Below are positions 307 to 38,215 of a stretch of 64,000 nt of DNA, piece by piece. A model generated the notes under the pieces. The model worked only from the letters and a program-made list of their open reading frames with translations. It searched no databases and had not been told where the DNA came from. Numbering within the stretch: the stretch's first letter is position 1; each line of letters opens with the position of its first letter. This DNA comes from Kribbella qitaiheensis (GTDB lineage Bacteria > Actinomycetota > Actinomycetes > Propionibacteriales > Kribbellaceae): positions 62,001-126,000 of the forward strand of contig NZ_CP043661.1 in assembly GCF_014217565.1 (NCBI RefSeq). Direction: 5' to 3'. The translations under genes were made by a program, and so were the position numbers.

Positions 307-1440
307 GTGGGGCGTGTCATTAATTAGGTAACGGTTGGTGGTGGGTCAGAATGGGGTATGGCGAACCGTCCTGCTGCCGCGTTGGTGCTTCGTGAGGGTG
401 ATCGGGAGCGGTTGGTGTCGTTGACGCGGTCGACGACGGTTCGTGCTGGGTTGGCGTTGCGGGCGCGGGTGGTGTTGCTGGCTGCGGGTGGGGTATCGAA
501 TACGGCGATCGCGGAGCAGGTGGGGTTGTCTCGTCCGAAGGTGATCGGGTGGCGGCAGCGCTACGTGCGCAGCGGGATCAAGGGTCTGGATGATGCCGAA
601 CGGGTGGGCCGGCCGCGCGAGATCGATCACGCGATGATCGTGGCCGAGACGTTGAAGCCGCCGCCGAAGCGGCTGGGGGTGACGCACTGGTCGTCTCGGC
701 TGCTGGCCGTGCGGCTCAAGGTCGGCAACGCGACGGTCGCGCGGGCGTGGCGTGACTATGGGGTGCAGCCGTGGCGCAGTGAGACGTTCAAGTTCTCCAC
801 CGATCCGGAGTTGGTCGCCAAGGTCACTGATGTGGTCGGGCTGTATCTGGCGCCACCGGACAACGCGATCGTGTTGTGTGTCGACGAAAAGTCGCAGATC
901 CAGGCTTTGGACCGGACTCAGAAGATGCTGCCGATGCAGCCTGGTTTTCCCGAGCGCCGCACCCATGACTACGTCCGGCACGGCACCAGCACGTTGTTCG
1001 CGGCACTGGAGATCGCCACCGGCACGGTGACCGCGGCCTGCAAACCCAGGCACCGCCACCAGGAGTTCCTTGCGTTCCTCAAGCAGATCGACCGCGCCTA
1101 CCCCGACGACGGCACCGGTCAGGAACTGCACCTGGTGATGGACAACTACGCCACACACAAACGGGCCGAGGTCCGTGACTGGCTGGCCGCGCACTCCCGG
1201 TTCAAGGTCCACTTCACCCCGACCTCCGGGTCATGGCTCAACCTGGTCGAGGTCTGGTTCGGCATCATCGAACGACAAGCCATCCACCGCGGGACCTTCA
1301 CCTCGGTCAAAGACCTCAACACAAAGATCCGAGCCTTCATCACCGGCTGGAACGACCGCTGCCACCCCTTCGTCTGGACCAAGACCCCAGACCAGATCCT
1401 CAAGAAAGCCAACCGTCACCGAACTTCAGAAACGCTCCAC
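307..1440 (+). mobile_element. IS630-family insertion sequence (copy 1, intact)
   Basis: A 1134-bp element with imperfect inverted ends: GTGGGGCGTGTC at the left and, on the other strand at the right, GTGGAGCGTTTC. It is flanked by TA at 305-306 and 1441-1442, the dinucleotide duplication expected of the IS630 family. It encodes one transposase that runs to the last base of the element. The right TA is shared with the adjoining degenerate IS630 element that starts at 1443. One of the two therefore inserted at the border of the other, and both lie in what was once a CTAG tetranucleotide. Confidence 0.8.
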
Positions 1441-1443
1441 TAG
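358..1443 (+). CDS. IS630-family transposase
   Basis: A 361-residue DDE transposase. The N-terminal 90 residues hold a helix-turn-helix region that would bind the element ends. The catalytic core shows Asp176 in CVDEKSQ, Asp262 in VMDNYATH and Glu298 in NLVEVWF, the usual DDE spacing, and the GSWLN motif precedes the Glu. The length is normal for the family and no frameshift is seen, so the protein is probably active. The stop codon is odd: the last sense codon ends at 1440, the last base of the element, and the TAG stop at 1441-1443 is made from the duplicated target TA plus the next G. Confidence 0.92.
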   Translation: MANRPAAALVLREGDRERLVSLTRSTTVRAGLALRARVVLLAAGGVSNTAIAEQVGLSRPKVIGWRQRYVRSGIKGLDDAERVGRPREIDHAMIVAETLKPPPKRLGVTHWSSRLLAVRLKVGNATVARAWRDYGVQPWRSETFKFSTDPELVAKVTDVVGLYLAPPDNAIVLCVDEKSQIQALDRTQKMLPMQPGFPERRTHDYVRHGTSTLFAALEIATGTVTAACKPRHRHQEFLAFLKQIDRAYPDDGTGQELHLVMDNYATHKRAEVRDWLAAHSRFKVHFTPTSGSWLNLVEVWFGIIERQAIHRGTFTSVKDLNTKIRAFITGWNDRCHPFVWTKTPDQILKKANRHRTSETLH

Positions 1444-2696: not shown

Positions 2697-3557
2697 AATC
2701 TTTCCTTTCCAGACAACCCAATCTTAGTTTGGGCACTGTCCGGAAGGTTCGTAGCACCTCATAGAAACGTTGGGGTTGTAACCGTGTTCGGGTTGACCTG
2801 GCCGGGGTTGGTTTTGGAGGCTGTCGTGTTGGAGGTGGTGATGGCTCGACAGCCTGAGGTGTTCGTGCGTTCCTTGGAGCCCGAGGAAGCGGCTCGGTTG
2901 GTGAAGATCACGCGGACGACGAAGGACCGGGTCCGGTTGCGGCGGGCGGGATCGTGCTGGCGTCGGTGCAGGGCCGTAGCGCGGTCGAGGCTGCGGGCAT
3001 GTTCGCGATGAAGGCGCAGTACGCGCGGGAGGTGATCCACGCGTTCAACGAGTCCGGGTTCGCGGCGCTGGACCCAAAATGGAGCGGGGGCCGGCCACGC
3101 AGGTTCGGGCCCCCGGTGCGTGAGACGGTCTGCCGGGTCGCGAAGACGCCGCCGCAGAAGCTGGGTCGCCCGTTCACGACGTGGAGTTTGTCGAAGCTGG
3201 TCGAGTACCTGGCCGGGCACAAGAGCATCGCCATCAGTACCGAGTCGGTGCGCCAGATCCTGCGTCGAGCCGGCATCAGGTGGCAGGTGAGTGTGCCAGT
3301 CTGATTTGGCCCCACTTGGGGCGGTAGTGATGGCTTGATTTGGCTCCACCCTCGACCATCCAGTCCTCTACGTTCGTGTCGTCTGCCAAGGCGATCACGA
3401 GAGGTGGAGGGGTTGAAGGAGAGATCGAGAGTGGAGCAGTTCGAACGTATCCGACGCGAGCGTCGAGATGAAGGTTTGTCGATCCGGGCACTGGCGCAGC
3501 GCCACCAGGTCCATCTGAGGTGCCACGCGCTTTCCGGACAGCTTTTTGATGGCTGAT

Positions 3558-4470
3558 TCAGGCGGCGGATTGTGTTTCCAGGTAGTCGTCGTGGGCTTGC
3601 TGTGGGGTCCGGTAGCCGAGCCCTGAGTGACGGCGTTTAGTATTGTAGCGCAATTCGATGTAGCGGGCGATATCGCGGCGTGCATGGTCGCGGGTCGGGT
3701 ACTCGGTTCGGTGGGTACGCTCGTTCTTGAGAGCGCCGAAGAACGATTCGGCCATCGCATTGTCGTAACAGATACCGGTCCGCCCGACTGATTGGCGAAG
3801 ATTATTGTTCTTCAAAGTCGCGGCGAACTGGGCGGAAGTGTAGTTGCTGCCCCGGTCGGAGTGAAAGATTGCGCCGTCGACAAGATCGTGATTCCGCACC
3901 GCCATGTCGATCGCGGCTTCGATCAGCGGGGTTTTGTAATTGTCGTCCATGGCCCACCCGATCACAGCTTTGGTGTGGCAATCGAGCACGGTCGCCAGAT
4001 AAAGCCACCCTTCCCAGGTCGAGACATAGGTAATGTCTCCGACCATCTTGTGCCCCGGAGCATCAGCGGTGAAGTCCCGATCTACCAGATCCGGGATCGG
4101 GCCGGCCTGGCCATCCTGCTCGGTCAGACAGTGCCGCCACGGCCCGCGGCTGGCACGGCTCCAAACCCAACTCACGCATGAGCTTGCGCACCAACTCCAG
4201 CCCACAGGTCACACCCCAGGCCACCAGGTCGGCATGCACCCGCCGGTACCCGTAGGTCTCGTCGGACTCTTCGAACGACTTGACGATGATCAGCTTGAGT
4301 TCGCCTTGGCGGCGCGCAGTCGCCGACATCGGACGGCTCCGCCAATCATTGAAACTGGACCGTTTCACCTCGAGCCACCGGCACATCTTCACAATCGACG
4401 GCGCATTTCCGTTCTCTCGGGTCAACCTGTTGGCATACTCCGCATCGATGAACTCGAACTTTTCGCTCAA
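3558..4470 (-). pseudogene. IS3-family transposase OrfB, copy B (frameshifted as read)
   Basis: The N-terminal half reads from ATG 4470 (MSEKFEFIDAEYAN) to about LEPCQPR. The frame is then lost at the tract GGCCCGCGG (4141-4149). The intact copies read GGCCGCGG here, so one extra C explains the break. The C-terminal half continues in the other frame with WRHCLTEQDG, the DDE residues (GDITYVS, HSDRGSNYTS, AMAESFFGALKNE) and the usual end. Removing one base gives 303 residues, the same as the other copies. It may be a sequencing error, since the same kind of extra base recurs elsewhere in the window. Confidence 0.9.
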
Positions 4471-4760
4471 CGATGATCCTTGGCAAAGTATGCTGCGGCT
4501 TTTTTTAGGAACTCGTTTTCCATCCGGAGTTCTCGCGTCTCCCGCTCCAGCTCGCGGAGCCGCGCACGCTCGTCCATGCTCAATGCCGGTTCCTCGCCGG
4601 CATGGTCTCGCTTAAAGGCGCTCACCCAGTTACTGAGGGTTCCCGGGTTGATGCCGAGCTCTCTCGCGACCTGAGTGACAGAACGTGAAGTCTCAATCAC
4701 CGACTTCACAGCTTCCTCCCGATACTCAGGAGTGAAATTCTTCTTCGGACGCGGCAACAT
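4467..4760 (-). CDS. IS3-family transposase OrfA, copy B
   Basis: A 97-residue protein with the same plan as the other OrfA copies: helix-turn-helix (VTQVARELGINPGTLSNWV), a charged coiled coil (RARLRELERETRELRMENE) and the LKKAAAYFAKDHR end. The coding strand has a run of A residues at the FLKKAA codons, the presumed frameshift site. It overlaps its orfB by ATGA. Confidence 0.92.
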   Translation of the reverse strand: MLPRPKKNFTPEYREEAVKSVIETSRSVTQVARELGINPGTLSNWVSAFKRDHAGEEPALSMDERARLRELERETRELRMENEFLKKAAAYFAKDHR

Positions 4761-7103: not shown

Positions 7104-8167
7104 CCCAAGACAACACCACCAAAACAAGCAGGGTGGGGCCAAATCAAAGCATCACAGCGGGGCCAGATGGGGTTGTCATACTCAGGCAGGCGACCAAGAC
7201 CTGGAAAGGCAGCCGGGATCCCGACTTCGCCGCCAAGATGGCCCGTGTTCTCGACCTCTACGACCATCCACCAGCCGATGGCCGGGTGATCTGCGCCGAC
7301 GAGTTCGGTCCGTTGAACCTGCAGCCCAGGCCCGGCAGGGGCTGGTTTCCCACCGGCCGCCCAGCCCGGTTGCGGGCCACCTACAACCGCAACGGCGGAG
7401 TACGGCACATGCTCGCCGCACTCGATCTGGCCACCGGGCAGATGTTCTACCGGTTCCGAGACCGCAAACGGTGGCGGGAGTTCCTCGGGTTCCTCAACAA
7501 CTCCGGGACCGGTTCCCGACCGGGAAGCTGTATGTCGTGTGCGACAACTATGGACCCCACAAGAAGGCCGAGGTCCTCGAATGGTGCCAGGCCAACCAGA
7601 TCGAGATAGTGCTCACCCCGAGCAACGCATCCTGGCTGAACTGGATCGAGTGCGAGTTCACCGCCCTGCGCTACTTCACCCTCGACGGCAGCGACTACCC
7701 CAGCCACACCGCCCAAGAGAACGCGATCACCGGCTACGTCCGCTGGCACAACAAACACGCCCAACCCAAACGACACTTCGCCATCGACTCCAAAATCCGC
7801 CGACCCGATTACCTCCCCAACGTTGCTTGACGAGGCACTAGCCCAGATATTTCATGGAGTTCCGGCGTGTCGTTGGGGGTCCTTGTTTAGTGGGGTTTTT
7901 GGCCGTTGGTCGGGGTGGTGGCGTGGGTTGGGCCCGGCTGTCGCGTCGGGTGGGCGGGTTCCGATGTTCCTTGGGTGGTAGGGGTGTGGGGCCGGGTCAG
8001 GTGGCTGGCCAGGGGGCTGCGCGGAGGCGGTCGAATGCTGTTGCGAGTTGGTGTGCCCAGGGCCAGTCGGTGTCGAGTCTGAGGTGCCGGCCGCGGGCGG
8101 TGCGGACGAGGACTCCTGCGGTGTGTGAGGTGCCGCGCGTTTCCCGGACAGCTTTTTCACGGTTAAT

Positions 8168-9079
8168 TCACGCTGCGAGCTGCTTTTCCAGGTACTCGTC
8201 ATGGGCTTGTTGTGGGGTTCGATAGCCAAGCCCTGAGCGGCGACGTTTGGTATTGTAACGCAATTCGATGTAGCGGGCAACGTCGCGGCGTGCATGTTCG
8301 CGGGTGGGATATTCAGTGCGATAGATACGCTCGTTCTTGAGAGTTCCGAAGAACGATTCAGCCATGGCGTTGTCGTAACAGATGCCGGTCCGGCCGACCG
8401 ATTGGCGAAGATTGTTCTTCTTCAAGGTGGCGGCGAACTGGGCGGACGTGTAATTACTGCCACGGTCGGAATGAAAGATCGCGCCGTCAGCGAGTTCATG
8501 GTTCCGGACAGCCATTTCGATGGCGGCCTCGATCAGTGGGGTCTTGTAGTTATCGTCCATCGCCCACCCGACCACCGCCTTGGTGTGGCAATCGATCACG
8601 GTCGCCAGATAGAGCCAGCCCTCCCAGGTCGAGATGTAGGTGATGTCGCCGACCATCTTGAGACCTGGAGCTTCCGCGGTGAAGTCGCGCTCGACCAGGT
8701 CCGGGATCGCGCCGGCCAGGCCATCTCGCTCGGTCAGACCGTGCCGCCACGGCCGCGGCTGACACGGCTCCAGGCCCAGCTCCCGCATCAGGACCCGCAC
8801 CAGTTCGAGCCCGCACGGCACGCCCCAATCCACCAGATCGGCATGCACCCGCCGGTACCCGTAGGTGTCATCGGACTCCTCGAACGACTTGCTGATGATC
8901 AGCTTGAGATCGGCTCGGCGCTTCGCCGTCACCGAGACCGGCCGGTTCCGCCACTCGTTGAAACTGGACCGGCCCACCCCGAACCATCGGCACATCTGAA
9001 CAATCGATGGCGCATCAGCGTCCTTGTAAGCCTTATCATCCGCATATTCCGCGTCGATGAACTCGAACCTTTCGCTCAT
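8168..9079 (-). CDS. IS3-family transposase OrfB (DDE integrase core), copy C
   Basis: A 303-residue protein that differs from copy A at two residues (Asp for Asn near position 15 and Arg for His in KRRRSGLGYRT). The catalytic Asp-Asp-Glu residues in GDITYIS, HSDRGSNYTS and AMAESFFGTLKNE are intact, as are the start overlap with orfA and the C-terminus. It is probably functional and could supply transposase to all copies. Confidence 0.93.
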   Translation of the reverse strand: MSERFEFIDAEYADDKAYKDADAPSIVQMCRWFGVGRSSFNEWRNRPVSVTAKRRADLKLIISKSFEESDDTYGYRRVHADLVDWGVPCGLELVRVLMRELGLEPCQPRPWRHGLTERDGLAGAIPDLVERDFTAEAPGLKMVGDITYISTWEGWLYLATVIDCHTKAVVGWAMDDNYKTPLIEAAIEMAVRNHELADGAIFHSDRGSNYTSAQFAATLKKNNLRQSVGRTGICYDNAMAESFFGTLKNERIYRTEYPTREHARRDVARYIELRYNTKRRRSGLGYRTPQQAHDEYLEKQLAA

Positions 9080-9366
9080 CGATGATCCTTGGCGAAGTAC
9101 GCTGCGGCTTTTTTCAAGAACGTGAGCTCCATCTGCAACTCCCGCGTCTCACGCTCAAGCTCACGCAGCCTGGCCCGCTCATTCACAGTGAGCGGCGGCT
9201 CCTCGCCGGCATGATCACGCCGATACGCAGCTACCCAATTACTCAAAGTCCCCGGATTGATACCGAGCTCTTTCGCTACCTGAGCTACTGGCCGCGAAGT
9301 CTCGATCACCGACTTCACAGCTTCCTCCCGATACTCAGGAGTGAAATTCCTCTTCGAACGCGGCAA
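9076..9366 (-). CDS. IS3-family transposase OrfA (HTH_Tnp_1), copy C
   Basis: A 96-residue protein identical in sequence to OrfA of copy A. It has the helix-turn-helix around residues 20-45, a leucine-rich coiled coil and a terminal LKKAAAYFAKDHR. It overlaps orfB by ATGA, and the A6 tract near its 3' end could allow an OrfAB fusion by -1 frameshifting. Confidence 0.92.
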   Translation of the reverse strand: MPRSKRNFTPEYREEAVKSVIETSRPVAQVAKELGINPGTLSNWVAAYRRDHAGEEPPLTVNERARLRELERETRELQMELTFLKKAAAYFAKDHR

Positions 9367-36136: not shown

Positions 36137-37091
36137 ATGCTCAGACGCGTTCTCACTTCCGCTCTGGCCTTGGCCGGAGTCGCCGCGACCGGTCTGGTTG
36201 CTGCTACACCGGCCCAGGCTGTTGCCTTCCAGACGACTGCCAACAACCTCAATGTCCGCTCGGACGCCTATCTGTCCGCCTCGGTGATCAAGGTGCTGGC
36301 CGGGCCGACCTCGGTCGACGTGGACTGCCAGAAGTCGGGTGACTCGGTCACGGTGCCGGGCCGGGGCCGCGACGACCTGGTGGGCTCACCTGCCGGCTCA
36401 TGGTGGCTACGTGACCGTTGGATACATCAACACGACGGAGACCAAGCTTCCCGGCGTACCGGACTGCGTCGTCAACCCGAATCCGCCGACCGGCGACGTC
36501 ACGCTGGCCGACGTACAAGGCATGTTCGGCAGCAGGATCGCGAATCCCTCGCTCGTGCAGACCGGTCTCCCGTCGCTGAACCAGGCGATGCGCGACGCGA
36601 ACATCAACACGCCGTACCGCAAGGCCGCCTTCCTGGCCACGCTGGTGCACGAGTCACGGCTGGAGTACAACATTCGCGAGATCGGCGACACCCGCGTGTA
36701 CGGCGGTCGCGGCTACATTCAGCTGACCGGTGACTTCAACTACGGACCCGCCGGCCGGTACTTCGGGATCGACCTACTCGGCAACCCCGAACTGGCCCGC
36801 TCGCTGCAGTGGAGCGCCCCGATCGCCCGCTGGTACTGGACGGTGGCCCGCAACATCAACCCGATGGCCGATGCGTTGAACATGGGCAAGGTGAACGCGG
36901 CGATCGGTTACCCGGCCGGTGCCGAGGACCAGCGCCGCTGCGACTCCTTCAAGAACGCGATCCGCTACCTCACCGGCTCGGTCCCGGCGGGCGTGATCTG
37001 CACGCGGTCGAAGGCGTTCTCTGGTGACACCAGCAAGCTGACCCGGGCCCAGTTCGACGCCCTCGGCAAAACCCCGGGCACCGTCGGCTGA
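36137..37091 (+). pseudogene. Secreted GH19 chitinase, first of a tandem pair, frameshifted as read
   Basis: ATG 36137 follows AGGAGACC. A signal peptide (LRRVLTSALALAGVAATGLV, cleavage after AQA) leads to an SH3-like domain (NVRSDAYLSASVIKVL). The frame is lost at the GGGCCGGGGCC tract (36358-36368). Dropping one base restores TTWWAHLPAHGGYVTVGYI and the GH19 catalytic domain: LADVQGMFGSR, a Glu in LVHESRLEYN, GRGYIQLTGDFNYG and WYWTVARN. The restored length is 317 residues. Such enzymes hydrolyse chitin or related beta-1,4 glycans outside the cell. The catalytic domain is nearly identical in DNA to that of the next gene although the SH3 part differs. Confidence 0.85.
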
Positions 37092-38215
37092 CAGTCGGCG
37101 AACAACGACCTGATTACCGAGTGTGCCGTGGCAGTTACCTGCCACGGCACGCTGCATTCGGTCGAAAGGGTTGAGCATTGACTGGAACGGGTGGAAAGTA
37201 ACTGTGAACTGACTTGCGCTAGGTACTTTTTAACCTCTCAGAGATCGCCCCTCTGCCCCGCCCCGGGAGAAGTCATGCCGAAGCCCAGATTCCGCCGTCT
37301 CCTCATCTCAGTCCTGGCCCTGGCCGGGCTCACCGCCGGCGGTCTGATCGCCGCCACCCCGGCGCAGGCCGCCGTCTTCCAGACCTATGGGAGCGGGGTC
37401 AACGTCCGCGCCGACGCGTACCTGTCGTCAGCCATTGTCCGCACTCTGTCCGGTCCCACGTCCATCGATGTGGACTGCCAGAAGGAAGGCGACCTGGTCA
37501 CCGTGTCCGGCGGTTCCAGCAAGTGGTGGGCGCACGTCCCCGCCTTCGGTGGGTACGTGACCGTCGCCTATGTGGCGATCCCCGAGGACAAGCTCCCCGG
37601 CGTACCGGAGTGTGGCGGTACGCCGCCGCCGACCGGTGGCGACATCACGCTGGCCGACGTGCAAGGCATGTTCGGCAGCAGGATCGCGAATCCCTCGCTC
37701 GTGCAGACCGGTCTCCCGTCGCTGAACCAGGCGATGCGCGACGCGAACATCAACACGCCGTACCGCAAGGCCGCCTTCCTGGCCACGCTGGTGCACGAGT
37801 CACGGCTGGAGTACAACATTCGCGAGATCGGCGACACCCGCGTGTACGGCGGTCGCGGCTACATTCAGCTGACCGGTGACTTCAACTACGGACCCGCCGG
37901 CCGGTACTTCGGGATCGACCTACTCGGCAACCCCGAACTGGCCCGCTCGCTGCAGTGGAGCGCCCCGATCGCCCGCTGGTACTGGACGGTGGCCCGCAAC
38001 ATCAACCCGATGGCCGATGCGTTGAACATGGGCAAGGTGAACGCGGCGATCGGTTACCCGGCCGGTGCCGAGGACCAGCGCCGCTGCGACTCCTTCAAGA
38101 ACGCGATCCGCTACCTCACCGGCTCGGTCCCGGCGGGCGTGATCTGCACCCGGTCGAAGGCCTTCTCTGGTGACACCAGCAAGCTGACCCGGGCCCAGTT
38201 CGACGCCCTCGGCAA
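36500..38215 (+). repeat. 570-bp near-identical direct repeat in two chitinase genes
   Basis: Bases 36500-37069 and 37646-38215 (offset 1146) are the same except for about three single-base changes that I can see. They cover the GH19 catalytic domains only. The signal peptides and SH3 domains upstream are clearly diverged. This points to recent gene conversion rather than a recent whole-gene duplication. Confidence 0.88.
37123..37150 (+). terminator. Strong hairpin between the two chitinase genes
   Basis: GTGCCGTGGCAG (37123-37134) pairs perfectly over 12 bases with CTGCCACGGCAC (37139-37150) around a 4-base loop, 32 bases after the first chitinase stop. The two chitinase genes are therefore separate transcripts. 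Confidence 0.75.

Follow-up and report, generated by a model that had tools for sequence, protein, structure and literature searches.

A complete IS630-type element can be read in the sequence at positions 304–1443 of the window, the 64,000-nucleotide stretch of Kribbella qitaiheensis DNA analysed here, and its transposase gene lacks a stop codon within the element. Comparison with related insertions indicates, with a confidence that we regard as high, that the element is stopless by design: insertion at NTAN sites, mostly CTAG and with a likely 4-bp duplication, would supply the TAG, and the choice of CTAG would permit the loss of the stop.

The open reading frame extends over positions 358–1443 and encodes a 361-residue transposase ending in ...TSETLH, with the coding part at 358–1440 on the plus strand and the TAG, also on the plus strand, at 1441–1443. 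No in-frame stop occurs upstream of the right junction, in agreement with the initial annotation, which had the frame running to the element's final base and the stop borne by the target. The left junction reads ...ctaCTAG|TGGGGCGTGTC (304–307|308) and the right junction GAAACGCTCCA|CTAG (1439|1440–1443). The left inverted repeat, TGGGGCGTGTC, was placed at 308–318 (plus strand) by the script used for end finding, and its counterpart, GAAACGCTCCA, occupies 1429–1439 (plus strand); the repeats span 11 bp with 2 mismatches, and the right one also codes for the last residues of the transposase. Depending on whether four bases or only TA were duplicated, the element starts at 308 or 307 and measures 1132 or 1134 bp. 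With the element bounded at 308–1439, the gene is seen to cross the right inverted repeat and reach the element's end without meeting a stop, and the frame arrives there in such a phase that the right-hand CTAG reads (CA)C-TAG, so that the insertion event itself would provide the stop. This CTAG contributes the TAG and, under the 4-bp reading, also the third base of the last His codon. The protein matches the Pfam models DDE_3 (1.8e-22) and HTH_29 (5.3e-12) as well as several other helix-turn-helix models. A DDE_3-type transposase with an N-terminal helix-turn-helix, encoded by the single reading frame of an approximately 1.1-kb element with short inverted repeats and insertion at TA, places the element in the IS630 family, while a frame that reaches the end of the element stopless and is closed by the target corresponds to the type of action described for IS870.

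The host genome (8,156,807 bases in one contig of 8.16 Mb) holds four full-length copies that we could find, namely the window copy, L013, L014 and L015, together with a partial fifth (L016), of which an exact-string search located neither end. The protein of L013 is identical to that of the window copy, and L014 and L015 are each one base longer and frameshifted. The frame changes of these two copies lie at different spots, around codons 85–88 and 226–229, and may reflect decay, sequencing error or frameshifting. The junctions of all four full-length copies are CTA|G (left) and C|TAG (right), so each is sited at CTAG. Since only 25 of the 872 TA dinucleotides in the window (2.9%) fall within CTAG (of the 872, 157 have G as the next base and 65 have A), the location of all four copies at this tetranucleotide exceeds chance. 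CTAG is itself scarce in the window, with 25 occurrences against approximately 195 expected from base composition, about eightfold fewer, so the IS630-type elements here target a rare site.

Directly to the left of the studied element lies a second, distinct IS630-type element (L017, G000:C1:61055–62304), the right part of which occupies positions 1–303 of the window on the plus strand and, as read from the translated frame, ends its transposase at an internal TAG (288–290). The CTAG at 304–307 is common to the right end of this neighbour and the left end of the studied element, and apparently one element inserted into the repeat that the other had left; because insertion into CTAG yields two CTAG sites, such elements can stack. 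Sited at CTAG despite its internal stop, the neighbour also provides an example of CTAG choice without any need for a stop. Other repeated sequences were observed in the window. A remnant at 7187–7743 derives from a third IS630-type transposase, 29–35% identical to the studied one. Three copies of a two-ORF insertion sequence, which from its ORF layout we take to be IS3-like, are found at ~1455–2760, 3515–4732 and 8125–9341; the compared blocks of copies 1 and 3 are identical, and those of copy 2 are 80–85% identical. A 300-base direct repeat (93% identical) occurs at 36438–36737 and 37584–37883, 1146 bases apart.

Relatives were gathered from several sources: 80 loci from named genomes, further loci from the host genome's own genus, order and class, the 14 genomes behind earlier loci, two other genera, plasmids, and viral contigs, which contributed few (2 and 5 loci). 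A pattern search of 394 genomes of the class with one left-end sequence gave matches in three genomes. Ends were located by a script via the inverted repeats, with the TA-adjacent base left unscored, so that neither this base nor the outer one was constrained in end finding. From 442 sources, 396 were taken into the final survey, and both ends were proposed for 348 of them, giving 268 distinct sites, of which 221 passed the inverted-repeat criterion and 47 failed it. The 46 sources left out were L001–L012 and L018–L037 (other views of the window's genome), the partial copy L016, the neighbour L017 and L410–L421 (empty sites). Before counting, L323, L330, L332, L044, L050 and L087 were corrected or dropped as having ends that were not credible, as were L073 and L088, in which the end finder had settled on an internal stop (in L088, moreover, the left end is not preceded by TA). 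Inspection by eye reassigned L092 and L098 to the stopless CTAG/CTAG class, and L093, L107 and L195, which are CTAG/CTAG with a stop that lies beyond the end via a frame change, were placed in neither class. The loci outside the repeat criterion include L211, with a weak repeat, L406, with a masked interior and no transposase match, and L276, which reads CTAA on the left and CTAG on the right with a weak left repeat (8/13 letters) and was taken as decayed. In L404, which seems rearranged, there are three ends, lying after ATAG, CTAG and CCGG. Many of the sampled sites are copies of one element and are thus not independent as elements; in an earlier run, the 206 passing sites represented 139 elements when told apart by the outer 60 bases.

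Among the 221 passing sites, CTAG flanks both ends in 151 stopless and 53 internal-stop cases. Together with the two by-eye corrections and three stopless insertions off CTAG (L381, L403 and L407), the stopless class comprises 156 resolved sites, and its architecture recurs in relatives down to 45–50% identity. The right end is followed by TAG in 155 of these 156 insertions, by TAC in one and by TAA in none; the expectation that A or G would follow the right TA was correct for G, and A did not appear. The C before the left TA, which has no effect on the stop, is kept in 154 of the 156. The internal-stop class (n = 54 after L330 was dropped) has 53 sites at CTAG and one at CTAC (L077, the same copy as L163), and insertion off CTAG is similarly infrequent in both classes (3/156 stopless, 1/54 internal-stop). 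In the genus of G746, a manual count over the 127 ends listed in 45 of 246 genomes, obtained with an end pattern that requires G or C before the site, gave 120 at CTAG and 7 elsewhere. The preference for CTAG supposed at the outset is borne out, as a strong one, by all four own-genome copies and by the 151 stopless relatives, and the branch is seen to insert at NTAN sites, overwhelmingly CTAG. Copies with an internal stop, which the initial annotation had named as evidence against its idea, are present in related lineages, whereas none of the four own-genome copies is of this kind. In the Gordonia alkaliphila element L075 and in relatives such as L241 and L336, an internal TAA lies inside a right inverted repeat that is longer and mirrors the left end, and may derive from the left end having been copied onto the right.

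The rare insertions off CTAG indicate what the frame would do at other targets, where it would meet another TAG (at ATAG) or run on into host DNA and gain a C-terminal tail (at CTAC). In L403, a stopless element at CTAC, the frame continues past ...ISDSGH through 35 residues of host DNA before reaching TGA, whereas L408, in the same genome and sited at CTAG, ends in ISDSGH (L409 is identical to L408 with common flanks, and both were counted as one site). The inner sequences of L403 and L408 differ at 18 of 1121 bases. A tail gained at a TA site that does not form a stop had been foreseen, and L403 appears, from its translated frame, to be a natural instance. L381, also stopless and sited at ATAG, retains its stop, with Gln as the final residue. 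The target site of L381 is uninterrupted in 22 of 58 other genomes searched and reads ACC-TAC-GTC in all 12 of those fetched; since the site is whole in relatives, L381 represents a real insertion at a non-CTAG site. Empty sites of this kind give the same joined sequence for a 2-bp and a 4-bp duplication, and the 4-base overlap of the flank matches in G793 stems from query construction and is no independent proof of either.

At CTAG itself, 2-bp and 4-bp duplications read alike, and it is the insertions off CTAG that separate them: duplication of TA should leave the element's own G or C beside each end, whereas duplication of four bases should repeat all four. Three relatives repeat all four, namely L381 (ATAG/ATAG), L163 (CTAC/CTAC) and L403 (CTAC/CTAC). 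L381 shows 0 differences from its sibling L397 over 1130 inner bases and L163 shows 0 from L154 over 1121, so that under TA duplication the sole change in each of these two copies would have to have fallen on the terminal base and to match the other flank. According to this competing account, which we consider unlikely, the element occupies 307–1440 with its own G...C ends, and the stop is formed by TA plus the next host base. It is favoured by the TA duplications published for IS630 and ISY100 (PMC2170065) and by three sites whose two ends disagree in the pattern expected of a TA duplication: L407 (TTAG/CTAG), L211 (GTAG/CTAG) and L406 (GTAG/CTAG). L407, the only disagreeing site compared with siblings, differs from L422 at 73 of 1127 bases and may have a mutated flank; L211 has a weak repeat (6/13 letters) and is located at the end of a contig; and the masked interior of L406 leaves its two ends possibly not from one element. 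The off-CTAG relatives accordingly divide into three that show 4 bp and three that show the TA pattern. Against TA duplication, all three concordant sites would need a substitution exactly at the terminal base and matching the other flank, two of them in copies otherwise indistinguishable from a sibling, and a changed element-adjacent base is also present at the single ends L402 (CTAA), L405 (CTAT) and L151 (CTAT). On these grounds the site is probably duplicated as four bases, CTAG, rather than as TA, a reading that is the better of the two and not proven, and the initial annotation, which ended the element at 1440 with a TA duplication, is probably wrong on this point in view of L381, L163 and L403. 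A literature search by literal terms found no paper on a 4-bp target site duplication in the IS630 family, which is weak evidence of absence. For the studied copy the most likely layout, extrapolated from the off-CTAG relatives, is an element at 308–1439 flanked by CTAG repeats at 304–307 and 1440–1443. We think it likely, judging from sequence comparison, that the transposase of this branch makes a 4-bp staggered insertion, with the whole stop and the wobble base of the last codon being target DNA, that the right inverted repeat serves both as a binding site and as C-terminal coding sequence, and that off-CTAG insertions such as L403 are natural C-terminal fusions.

The initial annotation further proposed an economical link between target choice and correct protein ends. 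One half of it holds, in that the target provides the stop; the other half, that the target is chosen for the sake of the stop, does not, because internal-stop relatives use CTAG equally (53/54), and the choice of CTAG is thus independent of the need for a stop. That the preference is created or upheld by selection for correct protein ends is in our estimate very improbable: the TAG at 155 of the 156 resolved stopless sites is what such selection would favour, but the equal use of CTAG by the internal-stop class, the similar rarity of off-CTAG insertions in both classes and the retention of the left C, irrelevant to the stop, all speak against it, with numbers too small to tell against a weak effect of selection, which may exist. 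The notion that the stopless end is a decay artefact, with the true end lost and the TAG accidental, has a negligible chance of being right: frameshifts in two of the four copies of this genome show that the element is partly decayed, but both inverted repeats and the CTAG on both sides are present in all four, and relatives with as little as 45–50% identity share the architecture. A tree of 109 transposases (84 stopless and 25 with an internal stop, some labels being hand overrides and some internal-stop labels, such as L221 and L283, possibly representing single decayed copies) requires at least 8 changes of state, 6 of them forced by starred branches, compared with approximately 22.6 for shuffled labels; the tree does not give the ancestral state. 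CTAG specificity, present with or without an internal stop, would permit the loss of the stop, and the choice of CTAG is not a device for making one.

A stop made by the target would rest on a fixed target choice without being its cause, and rare off-target copies would yield tailed transposases. If the 4-bp duplication is true, element boundaries annotated from TA are displaced by one base at either end in this branch, and the 2-bp cut described for IS630, ISY100 and Tc1/mariner does not apply throughout the superfamily.

IS870 originates from A. vitis. The nearest precedent for the studied element is found in IS870 itself, a clade representative of the Tc1-mariner-IS630 superfamily (PMC4678618), since the title of Fournier, Paulus and Otten 1993 makes a CTAG target a requirement for generating the stop codon of its large ORF1. 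Two elements from plasmids of the A. vitis group, L326 and L327, candidates for IS870 itself, are approximately 50% identical to the studied transposase over residues 1–314, and by eye their right ends read ...GGT-GAC-TAG at CTAG; they differ in that they show no one-frame alignment past residue 314 and in that L327 lacks CTAG at its left end. Elsewhere, the IS5-family element ISPsp10 (IS427 group; PMC4133298) is described as having a stopless ORF2 for which the target provides the stop, with TA duplicated; it differs from the studied element in its family, its two ORFs, its TAA stop and the single insertion analysed. For ISLxc2 and ISLxx4, of the IS481 family, PMC2516522 places the transposase stop within the duplicated host site NCTAGN, again in another family and with a duplication given as NCTAGN. 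Closer in family are IS630 and ISY100, which share the transposase family of the studied element and differ in their reported TA duplication; IS630 prefers the TA within CTAG, as stated in the title of Tenzen and Ohtsubo 1991, and the term 'stop codon' is absent from the text of PMC2170065. The target of ISPsy32, another IS630-family element, is described as CTAG repeats in the text of PMC8027508 examined, which contains nothing on a stop codon, and an ISPsy32-type transposase is 42.7% identical to the studied one. A stop made by the target is thus not new, having been reported earlier for IS870, ISPsp10 and ISLxc2/ISLxx4. The present analysis adds how widely the design occurs, that it is independent of target choice, a tailed copy found in nature and support for duplication of 4 bp. 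The trick, described for a few individual elements, proves common across a broad set of IS630 relatives.
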